Positions 2,198 through 44,971 of a stretch of DNA of 52,022 nucleotides are shown here, one piece after another. Position 1 is the stretch's first letter; every line of letters starts with the position of its first letter. The stretch lies in contig JACQXX010000120.1 of assembly GCA_016208495.1 (NCBI GenBank), positions 1-52,022 of the forward strand. Direction: 5' to 3'. The notes below the pieces were generated by a model. That model was not told the DNA's origin. It did no database searches and worked only from the letters and a program-made list of their open reading frames with translations. Origin of the DNA: Acidobacteriota bacterium. GTDB lineage: Bacteria; Acidobacteriota; Blastocatellia; Chloracidobacteriales; Chloracidobacteriaceae. Made by a program: the position numbers and the translations under genes.

Positions 2198-2650
2198 TTC
2201 ACGTGTAGGTTTTTTGGTTTTGCACCGCGAAGCGTTGCGGTTCGGATAGCCGGTCGGTTGGCCGCTTTGGGCCTACCACCGGACTCCAGATTATCTTCTC
2301 TTTTCTCCCCACGTCGCCTGCGCCCCGCAGGGGCGCAGGCGACGTGGGGAGGGTTGGAGGAACGAACCTTTTTCCGGTGGTAGCTCGCAAAGCCTTGCAA
2401 CCAACCGGCTATCCGAACGGCAGCCCTTCGGGATGCTCAATCCAATTCACAAGTGGTCGCTCGCTGTAGCTGAACAACCGACCAGCTATCTGAACGGTAG
2501 CCCTTCTGAATGCTCAATCCAATTCACAAGTGGTAGCTCGCTGTAGCTGAGCACCGACCAGCTATCTGAACGGCAGCCCTTCGGGATGCTCAATCCAATT
2601 CACAAAGTGTCTTGTCTCACTGAGAGGCAATCAAAAATCCTACACGTGAA
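2198..2650 (+). repeat. Composite palindromic repeat element, copy 1
   Basis: The outer ends are imperfect inverted repeats, TTCACGTGTAGG (2198-2209) and CCTACACGTGAA (2639-2650). Inside are a second inverted pair, TTCGGATAGCCGGTCGGT (2241-2258) and its near-complement (2400-2417), and a perfect 22-bp central hairpin with a 3-base loop (2305-2326 pairing with 2330-2351). Copy 2 at 22113-22406 is homologous end to end but in the opposite orientation. No coding potential is convincing. It behaves like a MITE or a non-autonomous dispersed repeat; no transposase with matching ends is present in the window. Confidence 0.75.
2421..2610 (+). repeat. Tandem subrepeats of about 77 bp inside the palindromic element
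   Basis: The string CAGCCCTTCGGGATGCTCAA and the following CCAATTCACAAGTGG recur, with substitutions, at 2421, 2498 and 2574, giving periods of 77 and 76 bases. The second element copy at 22.1 kb has only one such unit, so the extra units explain why copy 1 is longer. Confidence 0.8.
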
Positions 2651-22112: not shown

Positions 22113-22406
22113 TCCCGTGTAGGTTTATTGATTATTTCTCTGTCAGACCTGACATTTTGTGAATTGGATTGAGCATCCTGAAAGGCTGCAGTTCGGATAG
22201 CCGGTCGGTGCGAGGCTTTGCAAGTTACCACCGGAAAAAGGTTCGTTCTCTCCCTTTTCTCCCCGCTTCACCCGCGCCCCAAGGGCGCGGGTGAAGCGGG
22301 GAGAACCAAAAAGTGGCATTCGTATCCGGTGGTAGGCCCAAAGCGGCCAACCGACCGGCTATCCGAACTGCAGCTCTTCGAGGTGCAAACCCAAAAACTA
22401 CACATA
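22113..22406 (-). repeat. Composite palindromic repeat element, copy 2 (inverted)
   Basis: This is homologous to 2198-2650 in reverse orientation. A perfect 24-bp inverted pair, CTGCAGTTCGGATAGCCGGT and four further bases (22186-22209) with its complement (22350-22373), encloses a perfect 23-bp hairpin with a 3-base loop (22257-22279 and 22283-22305). The hairpin arms differ from copy 1 in about half of their inner bases, yet pairing is perfect in both copies. Outer ends CCCGTGTAGG and CTACACAT are degenerate. It lies in the gap between the CHAT gene and the next minus-strand gene. Confidence 0.75.
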
Positions 22407-40267: not shown

Positions 40268-40876
40268 ATGAATAACTACAAATGGGTAATTCTATTTCCA
40301 GCGTTAACTGTCATCCTACATCTGGTTGGAATTCGATCTCATTTGGTTCAAGAACCAATAAAACTTTCTTCTTTGAAACAGTTAGAGGCACAATCGGACC
40401 ACCTCGCTGTTTTTATTCAGAGCAAAGAGCAAAATTATGTTGTTTCTCATAAGAGAACCTCAGAAGGTGCTGGGTACTCTTATATGAGGCAAATCTATAA
40501 ATCAGAAAAATATTCGGTAATCGCCAATATTCGAATCTGTGAAAGTCAAGAAGTTGCTGAAGAGAGATTTAAGCGACTTGGGTCAAATGGGGCGGTAGGA
40601 ATGCGATTGGCAGAGATTGGGGATAAGGCTCACGGGTGGTTTGATGGGACACTCTATGTCAGAAAAGGAAATGTTTTGGTGCTTATCTACGTCAACCCCC
40701 GACTAAGTAAAGATGAGCAACAACATCAAAACCAAGCTGAACAAAGTGCTGGAGTAAACCAGCCGAACTCTCAAGAAGAACCAATAAATCGAAACCCTAA
40801 TACTTCGACAGAACTTGAAATCGCCAAACGGTTTGCCCGGCACATCGTCGGTTTTTTTGAAGAACAAGCCCAGTAG
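40268..40876 (+). CDS. Tandem secreted paralogue 1
   Basis: The product is 202 residues with an N-terminal hydrophobic segment that fits a signal peptide or anchor. It has the family core: GAVGMRLAEIGDKAHGWFDG, then LYVRKGNVLVLIYV, then a variable Q/N-rich linker and the invariant tail EIAKRFARHIVGFFEEQAQ. The core resembles domains of exported proteins in which a GD.A......VRKGN strand pair forms a small alpha/beta fold, but I do not know the family. It is the first of six tandem copies. The tail shares nucleotide identity with copy 3 rather than copy 2. Function unknown. Confidence 0.85.
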   Translation: MNNYKWVILFPALTVILHLVGIRSHLVQEPIKLSSLKQLEAQSDHLAVFIQSKEQNYVVSHKRTSEGAGYSYMRQIYKSEKYSVIANIRICESQEVAEERFKRLGSNGAVGMRLAEIGDKAHGWFDGTLYVRKGNVLVLIYVNPRLSKDEQQHQNQAEQSAGVNQPNSQEEPINRNPNTSTELEIAKRFARHIVGFFEEQAQ

Positions 40877-40938
40877 AGAGGCTGAAAATGATAGTGACTC
40901 TGATTTGGAATCTGGAAGTTTTACACGAGAGGTGAGTT
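40877..40938 (+). repeat. Conserved 62-bp spacer, copy A
   Basis: The spacer after paralogue 1 contains GACTCTGATTTGGAATCTGG and ends in CACGAGAGGTGAGTT with the ribosome-binding site of the next gene. Nearly identical 62-bp spacers follow paralogue 2 (41545-41606) and paralogue 4 (42877-42938). The spacer after paralogue 3 is deleted to 37 bp. Confidence 0.9.
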
Positions 40939-41544
40939 ATGGGTAACTACAAACCTTTGATTTTGATACTGATTATAGTCCTTGTTTGGTTCCAGCCTTG
41001 CTTAGCCCAAGAACGGGTCAAAGTTCATTCACAAGAGCATTTGAATCTGATATCTAATCAACTTGCCACCTACGTTCAGAGTTTAGAAGGTCGGTATTTG
41101 ATCATGTATAAACGGGGTTGGGCGGATTCCGGATCAATTAGTTCGTTAAGGCAAATTTATCAATCAAAACAATATTTGGTTACAGCGAACATTTTGATTT
41201 GTGAAAATCAAGAGGCTGCTATAAAAGGATTTAAGGAGTTGTTTCCACGATCTGATGGTGCGGTAGGAATGCGATTGGCAGACATAGGAGATAAAGCCCA
41301 CGGGTGGTTTGATGGGACGCTTTATGTCAGAAAAGGAAACGTCCTGGCATTGATTTATATTGATCAACAACCTGATACGGGCAAAGAGGTACAGCAAAAC
41401 GAAAACCAGTCAGGGCAAACTACAGAAGCCAACCAGTCTGATGAAGAGCCAGTCAATCGGAATCCAAATTCCTCAACCCGGCTAGAGATTGCCAAGCGGT
41501 TTGCCCGGCATATCGTCGGTTTCTTTGAAGAACAAGCCCAATAG
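40939..41544 (+). CDS. Tandem secreted paralogue 2
   Basis: The product is 201 residues with signal peptide MGNYKPLILILIIVLVWFQPCLAQ. The core DGAVGMRLADIGDKAHGWFD and the tail EIAKRFARHIVGFFEEQAQ are as in copy 1. The linker and tail coding sequence (from ACAGAAGCCAACCAGTCTGA onward) is almost identical to copy 5, not to its neighbours, which points to gene conversion. RBS GAGAGGTGA precedes the ATG. Confidence 0.87.
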   Translation: MGNYKPLILILIIVLVWFQPCLAQERVKVHSQEHLNLISNQLATYVQSLEGRYLIMYKRGWADSGSISSLRQIYQSKQYLVTANILICENQEAAIKGFKELFPRSDGAVGMRLADIGDKAHGWFDGTLYVRKGNVLALIYIDQQPDTGKEVQQNENQSGQTTEANQSDEEPVNRNPNSSTRLEIAKRFARHIVGFFEEQAQ

Positions 41545-41606
41545 AAAGGCTGGAAATGAAAGTGACTCTGATTTGGAATCTGGAAGTTTTACACGAGAGG
41601 TGAGTT
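41545..41606 (+). repeat. Conserved 62-bp spacer, copy B
   Basis: Nearly identical to 40877-40938; it carries the ribosome-binding site of paralogue 3. Confidence 0.9.
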
Positions 41607-42212
41607 ATGGGTAACTATAAGTATTTGATTTTGATACTGATTATAGCCCTTGTTCGGTCCCAGACTTGCTTAGCTCAAGAGCTGATCAAAATTAATTCAC
41701 AAGATCAGTTGACTCAATACTCAAAGCAGCTAGTTATACATATTCAAAATCAAGAAAGGAGGTATTTACCAACTTACCAGCGAGCTTCAAAAGGGATTGA
41801 ATCGAGCTTTATCAACCATGCATATCAATCAAAGAAGTATTCTATATTAATTGATATAGAAATTTGTAAAGATCAATTAGTTGCAATAGAAGGGTTTAAA
41901 CACTTATTTCCACGATCTGATGGCGCTGTTGGAATGCGGTTAGCTGAAATCGGAGATAAAGCCCATGGCTGGTTTAATGGAACGATTTATGTGAGAAAGG
42001 GAAATGTCCTTGCTTTTATCTATGTGAGACCACGGGATCAAGGCAATCAGGGACAGCAAGCACAAGTCCCCCCCAACCCTGGACAACCTGCAGAAACCAA
42101 CCAGTTTGATGAAGAGCCAGTCAATCGAAATCCTAATACTTCGACAGAACTTGAAATCGCCAAACGGTTTGCCCGGCACATCGTCGGTTTCTTTGAAGAA
42201 CAAGCCCAATAG
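41607..42212 (+). CDS. Tandem secreted paralogue 3
   Basis: The product is 201 residues with signal peptide (MGNYKYLILILIIALVRSQTCLAQ). Its middle (AHGWFNGTIYVRKGNVLAFI and YVRPRDQ) matches copy 5 nearly base for base. Its front is closest to copy 2, and its tail matches copy 1. So at least three source copies contribute to one gene. Function unknown. Confidence 0.87.
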   Translation: MGNYKYLILILIIALVRSQTCLAQELIKINSQDQLTQYSKQLVIHIQNQERRYLPTYQRASKGIESSFINHAYQSKKYSILIDIEICKDQLVAIEGFKHLFPRSDGAVGMRLAEIGDKAHGWFNGTIYVRKGNVLAFIYVRPRDQGNQGQQAQVPPNPGQPAETNQFDEEPVNRNPNTSTELEIAKRFARHIVGFFEEQAQ

Positions 42213-42249
42213 AAACGTTGGAAATGATGGGGACCGAATAAGGTGAGCT

Positions 42250-42876
42250 ATGGAAAACTCCAAATTGTTGATCTCAATACTATTTATGTTTCTTTGGCCT
42301 ATTTGTTGTCTACAACTCGGTTTAACGCAAGACCTGATCAACGTTGGCTCACATCAACATCTGCAGGTTCTTTCAGACCAATTGTTAATAAAGATAAAAG
42401 CCCAAGAAGAGGGGTATCAACTAAGATCAAAAAATATTATTTTTGATACTGACTCACAGTCCGGTGAGATAATCCACGTCTATCATTCTGAACAGTTTGA
42501 TGTTAGATGTGATATCTCTTTCTGTTTGAATCAAGAGCAAGCAAGGGATGGGTTGAAGATGGCGATCCTTGGCGCTAATGGTGTACAGGGAATGCGTTTA
42601 GCTGATTTGGGAGATGAAGCTTATGGTTGGTGGACAGGGCCGGTATATGTCAGGAAAGGGAATTTACTTATCCTTGTATATATATATCCTTCTGACTCTT
42701 TCCAAAAGAACCTTGAAATAGACGAGACAAAGATACTAAAGGACCTTAGTTCCTCCGAAAAAAACAAAGATTCGCATAGTATGAAAAAACAAGATCTAAC
42801 CCGCCCAATTTTGCGTGACTTAGCAAAAGATTTCGTCAGACACATACTAGCTTTCTTTGAGGAGCAAGCACAGTAG
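42250..42876 (+). CDS. Tandem secreted paralogue 4, diverged
   Basis: The product is 208 residues. The signal peptide (SKLLISILFMFLWPICCLQLGL) and the family core (MRLADLGDEAYGWWTGPVYV, then RKGNLLILVYI) are kept. The linker and the tail (LAKDFVRHILAFFEEQAQ) have diverged. The gene is more AT-rich and does not share the mosaic blocks of copies 1, 2, 3 and 5. The upstream spacer is shortened to 37 bp. Confidence 0.85.
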   Translation: MENSKLLISILFMFLWPICCLQLGLTQDLINVGSHQHLQVLSDQLLIKIKAQEEGYQLRSKNIIFDTDSQSGEIIHVYHSEQFDVRCDISFCLNQEQARDGLKMAILGANGVQGMRLADLGDEAYGWWTGPVYVRKGNLLILVYIYPSDSFQKNLEIDETKILKDLSSSEKNKDSHSMKKQDLTRPILRDLAKDFVRHILAFFEEQAQ

Positions 42877-42938
42877 AGAGACTAGAAATGATGGTGACTC
42901 TGATTTTGAATCTGGAAGTTTTACACGAGAGGTGAGTT
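42877..42938 (+). repeat. Conserved 62-bp spacer, copy C
   Basis: Nearly identical to 40877-40938 and 41545-41606, although the genes on either side differ more. This suggests recent duplication or conversion across the spacer. Confidence 0.9.
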
Positions 42939-43655
42939 ATGAAGAATTACAAATGGTTGATTTGGTTGATAATGATGATTGGAACCTGCCTGCAACCTTG
43001 TTTGGCTCAAGAACCACCTAAGGTTTACTCACAAAAAAAATTAGATTTGCTTTCTGATGATCTTGCTCGTTATATCCATAGTAAAGAAGAGCGATATCTA
43101 ACGGGTTTTCATCGAGGTTCAGAAGGAATTGAATCGGGATTTATCAATCAAACCTATCAATCAGAGAAATATTTTATTGTTATTGATATCAACCTTTATA
43201 AAAGCGAAGCTGCCGCTGCCGAAGAATTTAAACAAGCCTTTTATGGGTCAAATGCTGCGGTAGGAATGCGATTGGCAGAAATTGGAGATAAAGCCCACGG
43301 CTGGTTTAATGGAACGATTTATGTGAGAAAGGGAAATGTCCTTGCTTTTATCTATGTGAGACCCCGAGATCAAGACACCCAAAGTCAGCAAACACAAAAC
43401 AAAGACTCTCAACCTGGACAAACTACAGAAGCCAACCAGTCTGATGAAGAGCCAGTCAATCGGAATCCAAATTCCTCAACCCGGCTAGAGATTGCCAAAC
43501 GGTTTGCCCGGCACATTGTCGGTTTTTTTGAAGAACAATCGGCTTGGAACCAACTTCAACCGTCAGGAAAAGGTCAAGAGTCCCGCCTTCAGGCGGTTCC
43601 AGTGCCTTTCAATCCAAATTTCGAATTCCAAACCCGCCTGAAGGCGGAACTCTGA
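42939..43655 (+). CDS. Tandem secreted paralogue 5, with a replaced C-terminus
   Basis: The product is 238 residues. Signal peptide MKNYKWLIWLIMMIGTCLQPCLAQ. The core and linker match copies 3 and 2, respectively. Instead of the usual ending FFEEQAQ plus stop, the frame reads FFEEQSAWNQLQPSGKGQES and continues through a palindromic repeat pair (43578-43652) for about 35 more residues. The ending is thus encoded by repeat sequence. The protein may still be functional because the whole family core precedes it. Confidence 0.85.
   Translation: MKNYKWLIWLIMMIGTCLQPCLAQEPPKVYSQKKLDLLSDDLARYIHSKEERYLTGFHRGSEGIESGFINQTYQSEKYFIVIDINLYKSEAAAAEEFKQAFYGSNAAVGMRLAEIGDKAHGWFNGTIYVRKGNVLAFIYVRPRDQDTQSQQTQNKDSQPGQTTEANQSDEEPVNRNPNSSTRLEIAKRFARHIVGFFEEQSAWNQLQPSGKGQESRLQAVPVPFNPNFEFQTRLKAEL
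43578..43652. repeat. REP-like palindromic pair at the end of paralogue 5
   Basis: GAGTCCCGCCTTCAGGCGG (43578-43596) and CCGCCTGAAGGCGGAACTC (43634-43652) are inverted copies with one mismatch; each core (CCGCCT-TC-AGGCGG) is itself a palindrome. The layout resembles bacterial interspersed mosaic (BIME) pairs. The pair replaced the native stop region of paralogue 5. Confidence 0.85.
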
Positions 43656-43685
43656 ACTTTTTGAGCACGAAACGGAGGAAAAATC

Positions 43686-44291
43686 ATGATCAGGTTTCGC
43701 ATAGTTGGATGGATAGCAGTCCTGTGGCTGTTGGGAAGCGCTCCCGCGTTTGCCCAGGCAGAGTTGGCTCCAGCAGATCCAAACAACCCAATTCAGGTCT
43801 TGGGATGCCGACTCGCCAACCGCATTCATGACCTGGAACGACTCTATTTGCTTCATTCCTGGGATGATCGGAAGGATAAGGGTGTTGAATACTGTGTCGG
43901 GCAAGCCTATAGCTCCGAATACCATTATGTTTCGGTTCATGTCTGTGTGTATAAAGACAAATATCGGGCTGAAGAACAATTTAGTATTTACTGGGGACAG
44001 GCTGGAAAAGCAGCCACCTACCTGCTTGATTTCGGAGACCAGGCGTTTACGGCGGATGATCGCTACACCTATGTCAGAAAGGACAATGTACTGGTCTTTA
44101 TCAACGTCAGTTTTAAGGAACCCTGGAAAGACCCGGATGATACCTCGAAGAAACCAGATGACGCTCCCGAATTGAGTCAACAAGAAAAGCAAAAACAACG
44201 GTTTGATGCCCGTGTGGAAATCAGCAAGCTATTTGCCGGGCACGTGTTTGCCTTGATCGAAGCCGACCCAAAACTGACTGCACCACGATGA
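43686..44291 (+). CDS. Tandem secreted paralogue 6, most diverged
   Basis: The product is 201 residues with signal peptide MIRFRIVGWIAVLWLLGSAPAFAQ. It keeps the order of family elements: HDLERLYLLHSWDDR, then QAYSSEYHYVSVHVCVYK, then LDFGDQAFTADDRYTYVRKD and NVLVFINV, and ends in EISKLFAGHVFALIEAD. GC content is higher than in copies 1-5 and there is no shared spacer, so it is an older member. RBS CGGAGG precedes the ATG. It may be the ancestral type of the array. Confidence 0.85.
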   Translation: MIRFRIVGWIAVLWLLGSAPAFAQAELAPADPNNPIQVLGCRLANRIHDLERLYLLHSWDDRKDKGVEYCVGQAYSSEYHYVSVHVCVYKDKYRAEEQFSIYWGQAGKAATYLLDFGDQAFTADDRYTYVRKDNVLVFINVSFKEPWKDPDDTSKKPDDAPELSQQEKQKQRFDARVEISKLFAGHVFALIEADPKLTAPR

Positions 44292-44356
44292 CTGGTCAGG
44301 AGAAATCAGGGAAGTACGCTTTTCTCAATCAGTTAACTTCTTCATGAGAGGACCCT

Positions 44357-44971
44357 ATGCGCGGAAATACAGGTCTTATTTTTGTTACAATGATCGGTCT
44401 AACCTTCATTGATAGTACAATTCCCAGGTTGGTCACAGTCTGCGAAGCTTCCTCGATACAGCAAAGGCAAACAGCATCCAAAAAACAGACCCAAACGATT
44501 CCCTCGCAAGCGGTGTATTTTCAACTCTTTCGGCAGGTAGCGGCGCTGGAAGCCAAAGCGGTTGAGTCTCCGGCCAATGCCGACAAGTACCGCGCCGTTT
44601 ACCGCAATCTTGCCGGACTGACCGACGCCCAAAACGCCGTTCTGCTCAAAACCGCCGTAGACTGCACCCGACAGGTAAACTCCCTCGACGCCCGAGCCAA
44701 AACCATCATTGCCAGTTTCAGGGCCCAATTCCCAAACGGGCAGGTTCCACAAGGGAAGACGCTTCCACCTCCACCTCCGGAATTGCTGCAATTGCAGAAA
44801 GACCGGGACGCCACGATTTTGCGTTTCCGGGACCAGCTTCGGACTGCTTTCGGAGAAGCCGCATTCGCCCGGTTTGATGCGTTTGTCCAGGGAAACATCG
44901 GCAGCAAAATGACGGTTTCCAGGCCCGTACCCTCAACTCATTCGACCGGCAGCCTGGATTTTCAGAATTAA
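44357..44971 (+). CDS. Small exported helical protein of unknown function
   Basis: The product is 204 residues with an N-terminal hydrophobic stretch (GLIFVTMIGLTFIDSTIP). The mature part is mostly helical: VYFQLFRQVAALEAKA, then AVLLKTAVDCTRQVNSLDAR, then ASFRAQFPNGQVPQGKTLPPPPPEL and LRTAFGEAAFARFDAFV. I have a sense that this pattern recurs, with paralogues, in acidobacterial genomes, but I do not know a function. It follows the six-paralogue array by 65 bases on the same strand and may belong to the same transcript. Confidence 0.75.
   Translation: MRGNTGLIFVTMIGLTFIDSTIPRLVTVCEASSIQQRQTASKKQTQTIPSQAVYFQLFRQVAALEAKAVESPANADKYRAVYRNLAGLTDAQNAVLLKTAVDCTRQVNSLDARAKTIIASFRAQFPNGQVPQGKTLPPPPPELLQLQKDRDATILRFRDQLRTAFGEAAFARFDAFVQGNIGSKMTVSRPVPSTHSTGSLDFQN

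Follow-up and report, generated by a model that had tools for sequence, protein, structure and literature searches.

The two copies of a palindromic element found in the window (the whole 52,022-nucleotide stretch of DNA that was analyzed) belong to a multicopy repeat in which a pair of GTAG-type REPs, arranged tail to tail, typically encloses a central hairpin, and the perfect pairing of this hairpin, within what appears to be a REP dimer of mobile type, is probably maintained by arm-on-arm copying, i.e., by template switching. The original prediction, which had missed the REP-dimer nature of the element, offered two readings of the pairing, namely that the hairpin is under selection or that repair rewrites one arm from the other; it is the second that the data favor, in particular over selection for an RNA, and selection on the hairpin may act as well.

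The two window copies and the genomic family

Copy 1 (2198–2650) and copy 2 (22113–22406, in the opposite orientation) lie where the original prediction had placed them, and their central arms of 22 and 23 bp are indeed perfectly paired around loops of three bases, the loop of copy 2 being CAA as read on the + strand (Table 1). Also as described, they share CACGTGTAGG-like outer ends, inner inverted repeats (GTTCGGATAGCCGG and CTACCACCGG) and flanks, except that the outer ends of copy 2 have diverged. Copy 1 is the longer of the two because it carries two extra Q-type REP units, with 90% and 70% identity to the first Q-side unit. Both copies are intergenic. The neighbors of the first are a gene encoding a guanylate cyclase domain and one for alpha-2-macroglobulin, and those of the second are a CHAT/TPR gene and an ORF with no Pfam family. 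The two copies are of class B, i.e., without the class A outer ends described below.

Table 1. Coordinates, in the window, of the parts of the two copies
Feature	Position	Strand	Details
Copy 1, outer end, P side	2198–2219	+	TTCACGTGTAGG...; 91% complementary to 2629–2650
Copy 1, P mini-hairpin	2222–2238	+	GCA-C-CGC-GAA-GCG-T-TGC; pyrimidine mismatch, GNA loop
Copy 1, P-side REP	2240–2282	+	core GTTCGGATAGCCGG and inner part GGCCGCTTTGGGCCTACCACCGG; outward, GTAG and short palindrome
Copy 1, central hairpin	2305–2351	+	arms 2305–2326 and 2330–2351, 22 bp, loop GCA, 0 mismatches
Copy 1, Q-side REP, inverted	2374–2436	-	CCGGTGGTAG...; core 2405–2418, mini-hairpin 2420–2436
Copy 1, two more Q-type REP units	2475–2627	-	direct repeat, spacing 76–77 nt
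Copy 1, outer end, Q side	2629–2650	+	
Copy 2, outer end, Q side	22113–22134	-	diverged (CCCGTGTAGG)
Copy 2, Q-side REP	22173–22235	-	mini-hairpin 22173–22189, core 22191–22204, inner part to 22235
Copy 2, central hairpin	22257–22305	-	arms 22257–22279 and 22283–22305, 23 bp, 0 mismatches
Copy 2, P-side REP	22326–22386	-	inner part 22326–22348, core 22355–22368, mini-hairpin 22370–22386
Copy 2, outer end, P side	22387–22406	-	diverged

What had been taken for a two-copy element is in fact present at no fewer than 78 sites of the host genome, a draft of 8.38 Mb in 177 contigs. In this genome the core TTCGGATAGCCGGT has 248 matches with at most two mismatches, compared with 70 for the reversed control, and the inner P motif GGCCGCTTTGGGCCTACCACCGG has 133 matches with at most three mismatches, compared with none for its reversed control. 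The family under study was defined as the 78 sites with at most one mismatch to GGCCGCTTTGGGCCTACCACCGG and, since no site of the reversed control corresponds to them, it cannot be attributed to chance. The remaining 55 matches include a further member with two mismatches and no central hairpin (L011) and 11 sites (L131–L141) belonging to a sister REP subfamily that is TGCCGCTTTGGGCATACCACCGG-like; this subfamily makes up most of the listed sites with two or three mismatches and has an inverted repeat of its own, more widely spaced. The family pattern was found in none of nine other genomes of the host's family, a DNA search for the element gave nothing in 13 other genomes of the host's order (the former nine included), and its exact 38-base pattern was found in none of the named genomes searched. 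Thirty-six copies are flanked by 600 bp or more of sequence to either side; 24 of them lie outside the picked ORFs of at least 110 aa, and the other 12 overlap such ORFs, which may be spurious.

Degenerate short tandem text (AGGGATGAGGGATG, GGTTAGTGGTTAGT, GAACCCCGAACCCC) occurs at 2696–2723 and in the flanks of several copies (e.g., L009, L040, L041, L088). Elsewhere in the window, 40268–44971 holds seven consecutive ORFs of ~200–240 aa on the same strand, spaced by ~670 bp, which are perhaps tandem paralogues (they were not aligned); none of the seven matched a Pfam family.

Architecture of the unit

The two ends of the unit, P and Q, by which the orientation of each copy was assigned (orientation by the AAAGGTTCG wing proved unreliable and was replaced), have the same order from the outside inward, namely a mini-hairpin, one hypervariable base, the core GTTCGGATAGCCGG, GTAG with a short palindrome, and a wing. 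The GTAG beside the palindrome reads outward as GGTGGTAG and is followed, as expected of a GTAG REP, by GGCC...GGCC or, in some Q ends, by a palindrome of the CTCGC...GCGAG type; in many Q ends the palindrome is broken (GCGAGGTTTTGGGAGC). Between the two wings, the spacer of ~90–100 bases separating the REPs holds the long central hairpin. The outer P and Q hairpins are as expected on both sides at 56 of the 78 sites and swapped at four (one of them uncertain), one or both sides being unrecognized or unclear at the rest. As is also expected of a REP dimer, a long hairpin is formed by the single strand, with folding z values of −13.6 (RNA) and −13.1 (DNA) for copy 2 and of −12.2 (DNA) for segment 2198–2470 of copy 1. 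Inversion extends to the entire core enclosed by the REP arms in L014, L017 and L029 when these are compared with L060.

The mini-hairpins have the form GCA-x-NNN-GNA-NNN-y-TGC, and their inner triplets change jointly (CGC/GCG, CTC/GAG, CCT/AGG, CCC/GGG, TCC/GGA), with one clear case of an unmatched triplet (CAC/GAG). A pyrimidine mismatch at x·y was read in 57 of the 61 P mini-hairpins and in all 57 Q mini-hairpins, a few of the hairpins being out of register; no loop is flipped among those read in register. Since mini-hairpins with matched changes nevertheless retain both the mismatch and a single loop direction, selection on single-stranded shape appears to act somewhere in the unit; it is likely in the mini-hairpin part and may help to keep the central hairpin. 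The base at the junction of mini-hairpin and core is hypervariable within conserved surroundings (C 34, A 18, G 7 and T 2 among 61 P ends; C 38, A 17 and T 2 among 57 Q ends) and is the same in P and Q in 31 of 51 copies; in the window it occupies positions 2239 (copy 1) and 22190 (copy 2).

The family is thus of a known class, the REP dimer, which is here partly fused to MITE-like ends. Class A copies have additional outer ends, GGGASYGTNAAAAAA, that constitute terminal inverted repeats and are present on both sides at 36 of the 78 sites when up to four mismatches are allowed, two of the matches (L037 and L123) looking spurious. The target duplications that it had been proposed to look for were found here, the TTA or TAA flanks being identical in 25 of these 36 copies; of the 30 with TWA on either side, 25 have the same middle base in the two flanks (P = 0.00016). 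Several of the TTA duplications sit inside GGTTAG runs. A search of the genome for an autonomous DDE partner in the DDE_Tnp_1 family gave two matches, one of them at a contig end, and neither has the class A terminal inverted repeats. Six elements of ~200 bp (L065, L072, L076, L078, L081 and L086) are MITE-like, with class A ends and no visible REP core.

The associated Y1 transposase

The host genome has seven near full-length and two partial Y1_Tnp matches. One of the seven near full-length genes (locus L096) sits among REPs of this family that all point the same way, an intact mini-hairpin and REP being present to the left and to the right of it. The mini-hairpin was found at none of the other six near full-length loci (L097 has a different GTAG repeat), and neither mini-hairpin with REP nor GGTGGTAG was found at the seven Y1 loci scanned in relatives. 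The L096 protein scores 62.3 bits with the NCBIfam IS200 model (cut-off 55) and 26.3 bits with the RAYT model (cut-off 80), and the REPs to either side of its gene share one strand, whereas inverted ones would be expected of a RAYT. Because the IS200 cut-off is reached and the RAYT cut-off is not, L096 is predicted from these scores to be an IS200-like, REP-flanked Y1 transposase and is not filed as a RAYT.

Pairing and covariation of the central hairpin

The original prediction had proposed to collect all copies genome-wide and to test their hairpin arms for covariation, with randomly mismatched arms in other copies speaking against it. That outcome did not arise: in the copies counted, the arms covary and mismatches are few. 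Central arms of at least 15 bp are present at 63 sites, and pairing is perfect in 45 of these, with 24 mismatches in 1412 pairs, a figure biased toward perfect hairpins by a finder that takes the best one; the other 15 sites, left uncounted, are truncated, deleted, bulged, imperfect, chimeric, at contig ends or contain N. The inner 15 bp of the 63 copies contain 20 mismatches; when the second arms were swapped among the copies (5000 shuffles), the number averaged 320 and never fell below 247. Unmatched arms can nevertheless exist, as indicated by L026, whose central hairpin is poor, and by L043 (1531–1708), one of the 15 uncounted sites and a probable recombinant whose mismatched arms resemble those of two different subfamilies.

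Covariation was analyzed in the 58 copies with loops of 3–4 bases (48 distinct rows, some short-armed ones being out of register beside the loop). Here 98.3% of 879 cells are paired, 114 cells are changed on both arms compared with at most 21 when the partners are slid, double changes occur at 15 of 20 pair positions, and the covariation score is 0.397 as against at most 0.089 for slid partners. The arms thus differ widely among copies yet stay paired, so that a change on one arm is matched on the other, as had been claimed from the two window copies.

The way in which matched changes arise can be approached from close copies, 22 of which were picked from a tree of the copies and the copy list; L067, which is out of register, short-armed and at a contig end, was dropped. 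In the inner 17 pairs of the remaining 21 copies (357 pairs, changes further out such as those of L040 and L041 being excluded), five are changed and unmatched and four changed and matched. Each matched change is private to one copy (L035, L038, L056 and L059); L004 and L039 have one unmatched change in common, and the single change in L051 is the unmatched version of the matched change in L059. The near equality of matched and unmatched changes favors arm-on-arm copying, by which matched changes would arise in one step.

Selection for a paired single-stranded DNA hairpin in transposition, with mismatched copies failing to multiply, is rather unlikely as the explanation of the pairing. The mini-hairpins, with almost only matched changes and with their pyrimidine mismatch and GNA loop kept, do suggest recognition of a single-stranded shape, and compensatory changes in REPIN hairpins have been published and interpreted as indicating that it is important for the element to be able to form a hairpin (PMC3116915). 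On the other hand, private matched changes as frequent as unmatched ones would demand two independent mutations in each case, which we judge unlikely, and such selection by itself would not invert the loop in half of the close copies, as is described below.

The outer arms point in the same direction as the close copies. In the REP core arms, which are ~150 bases apart, 26 of 770 pairs are changed in 55 copies (8 of the 63 were skipped) and none of the 26 changes is matched, compared with 101 matched of 123 changed pairs in the central hairpin, where unusual arms were placed in the best of three registers; the inner CTACCACCGG arms have two changed pairs in 53 copies, neither matched. The lack of matched changes in distant arms favors arm-on-arm copying, in a suggestive way only, since the outer arms are constrained in sequence and the 26 changes are clustered in 15 copies, several being multi-base (those of L016 and L059 may be indels), which makes this control a weak one.

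A selected RNA should tolerate G·U better than A·C. Among the 24 central-arm mismatches, G·T and A·C are equally frequent (10 each); there is therefore, within these small numbers, no signature of RNA wobble, which again favors arm-on-arm copying. It is highly improbable that the hairpin is selected as a transcribed RNA, be it a regulatory RNA, an RNase barrier or a terminator: the very stable folding of copy 2 as RNA would suit such a role, but no Rfam family passes its gathering score in the window, the central hairpins of the two window copies have no T run after them on either strand, and the orientation of the loop is random.

Orientation of the loop

Loop direction (GCA, CGCA or GCAG versus TGC, TGCG or CTGC) could be assigned in 40 of the 63 copies. 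Among the 50 pairs whose flanks are 95% or more identical, the loop is the same in 24 and flipped in 26; on a tree of 38 copies (two were dropped as lying at contig ends, and many branches are weak) loop direction changes 14 times, compared with 13.0 ± 1.6 (mean and s.d.) after shuffling; and of the seven motif-defined arm groups with two or more members, five contain both orientations. The orientation of the loop is thus randomized relative to the flanks, a result that favors arm-on-arm copying and that, if the assembly is right, adds to the homogenization of the arms the second property expected of a template-switch target.

The centers of hairpins are hard to assemble, and the loop result is provisional as it rests on a draft assembly, no second assembly having been found among the nine other genomes of the family. 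It is very unlikely that the arms are real while the orientation of the loop and some of the arm matches were scrambled by short-read assembly. The genome is a draft, N runs at or beside the hairpin in L084 and L118 are a sign of the assembler's difficulty there, and a coin toss of the assembler between near-identical copies would also yield loops in a 50:50 ratio. However, many perfect arm sequences are found in a single copy each and could not have been produced by shuffling between copies, and loops of both orientations are present in several of the arm groups, the commonest being only one of these.

Origin of the perfect pairing

Arm-on-arm copying, the reading that we prefer, may be pictured as follows. 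Both window copies are members of a mobile-type repeat, a dimer of the BIME/REPIN kind, whose single-stranded unit folds into one long hairpin and which was probably spread by the IS200-like Y1 transposase encoded among the same REPs; the 36 sites with terminal inverted repeats, mostly with TTA or TAA duplications, have the look of elements mobilized by a DDE transposase. As the DNA is replicated, the new strand may fold back or switch strand, copying one arm onto the other, thereby erasing or spreading single mutations and also inverting the loop, and the central hairpin would remain perfect mainly because its arms are only 3–4 bases apart in most copies. The computations show the copy number, the anatomy, the covariation, the inversion of the loop in the assembly, the absence of matched changes from the distant arms and the association with one Y1 gene; that the Y1 enzyme moves the element, that switching takes place during replication, and how much selection contributes are inferred from these.

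A further possibility, which we consider quite unlikely, is that inversion of the hairpin is part of the life cycle of the element, copying or moving as a single strand entailing re-synthesis of the hairpin from one arm. Were this so, pairing would be reset to perfect and the orientation of the loop redrawn at each copying, the hairpin would be a recorder of copying events, and the absence of a tree signal in the loop would be their direct trace.

Covarying base pairs are usually taken as proof of a selected structure. The coexistence of covariation and random loop inversion, for which one genome here provides dozens of parallel trials, implies that the copying process itself can produce covariation, and constitutes an unusually clear sign of perfect pairing being maintained by copying between arms. 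RNA function should consequently not be read from covariation in REP-like repeats; furthermore, it would become possible to measure, in a natural bacterium, how often template switching occurs at short inverted repeats.

Relation to known systems

Like REPINs and BIMEs (Bertels and Rainey 2011, PMC3116915), the element is multicopy and consists of two inverted REPs, the ends being conserved and the spacer between them varying and forming a hairpin; unlike those described there, it has a separate spacer hairpin of 15–30 bp that is perfect in most copies, a loop found in either direction and, in many copies, transposon-like terminal inverted repeats, and among the 14 genomes of its order that were searched it is confined to the host. 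It also resembles the GTAG tail-to-tail dimers (BMC Genomics 2013, PMC3733652), in which GTAG likewise stands by a short palindrome and the tails point inward; their spacers are mostly of 20–100 bp, some with stem-loops, and some families lie inside longer palindromes, but the passages of that paper dealing with the dimers mention neither covariation of a spacer hairpin nor inversion of a loop. A 2025 paper on a REP tool tabulates Chloracidobacterium thermophilum among its genomes (PMC12306157).

With IS200/IS605-like Y1 transposases and RAYTs (PMC2817692) L096 has in common the Y1_Tnp domain and a gene flanked by REPs of the family; it differs from RAYTs in that these REPs are direct instead of inverted and in that the NCBIfam cut-off for RAYTs is missed. 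The same source takes the view that selection for complementary mutations preserves REP palindromes.

Template switching is described as homogenizing the arms of inverted repeats and inverting the loop or spacer between them in rRNA genes and yeast genes (PMC8794818, PMC8604942). The likeness to the present hairpin lies in exactly these two effects; the sites there are rRNA genes and yeast coding sequence, whereas here they are dozens of dispersed copies, and the present repeat keeps no tree signal in the direction of the loop. In the open literature, none of the matches listed joined REP elements with template switching. REP dimers, compensatory changes and template switching are each known, and it is their combination, together with saturated inversion of the loop, that looks new.
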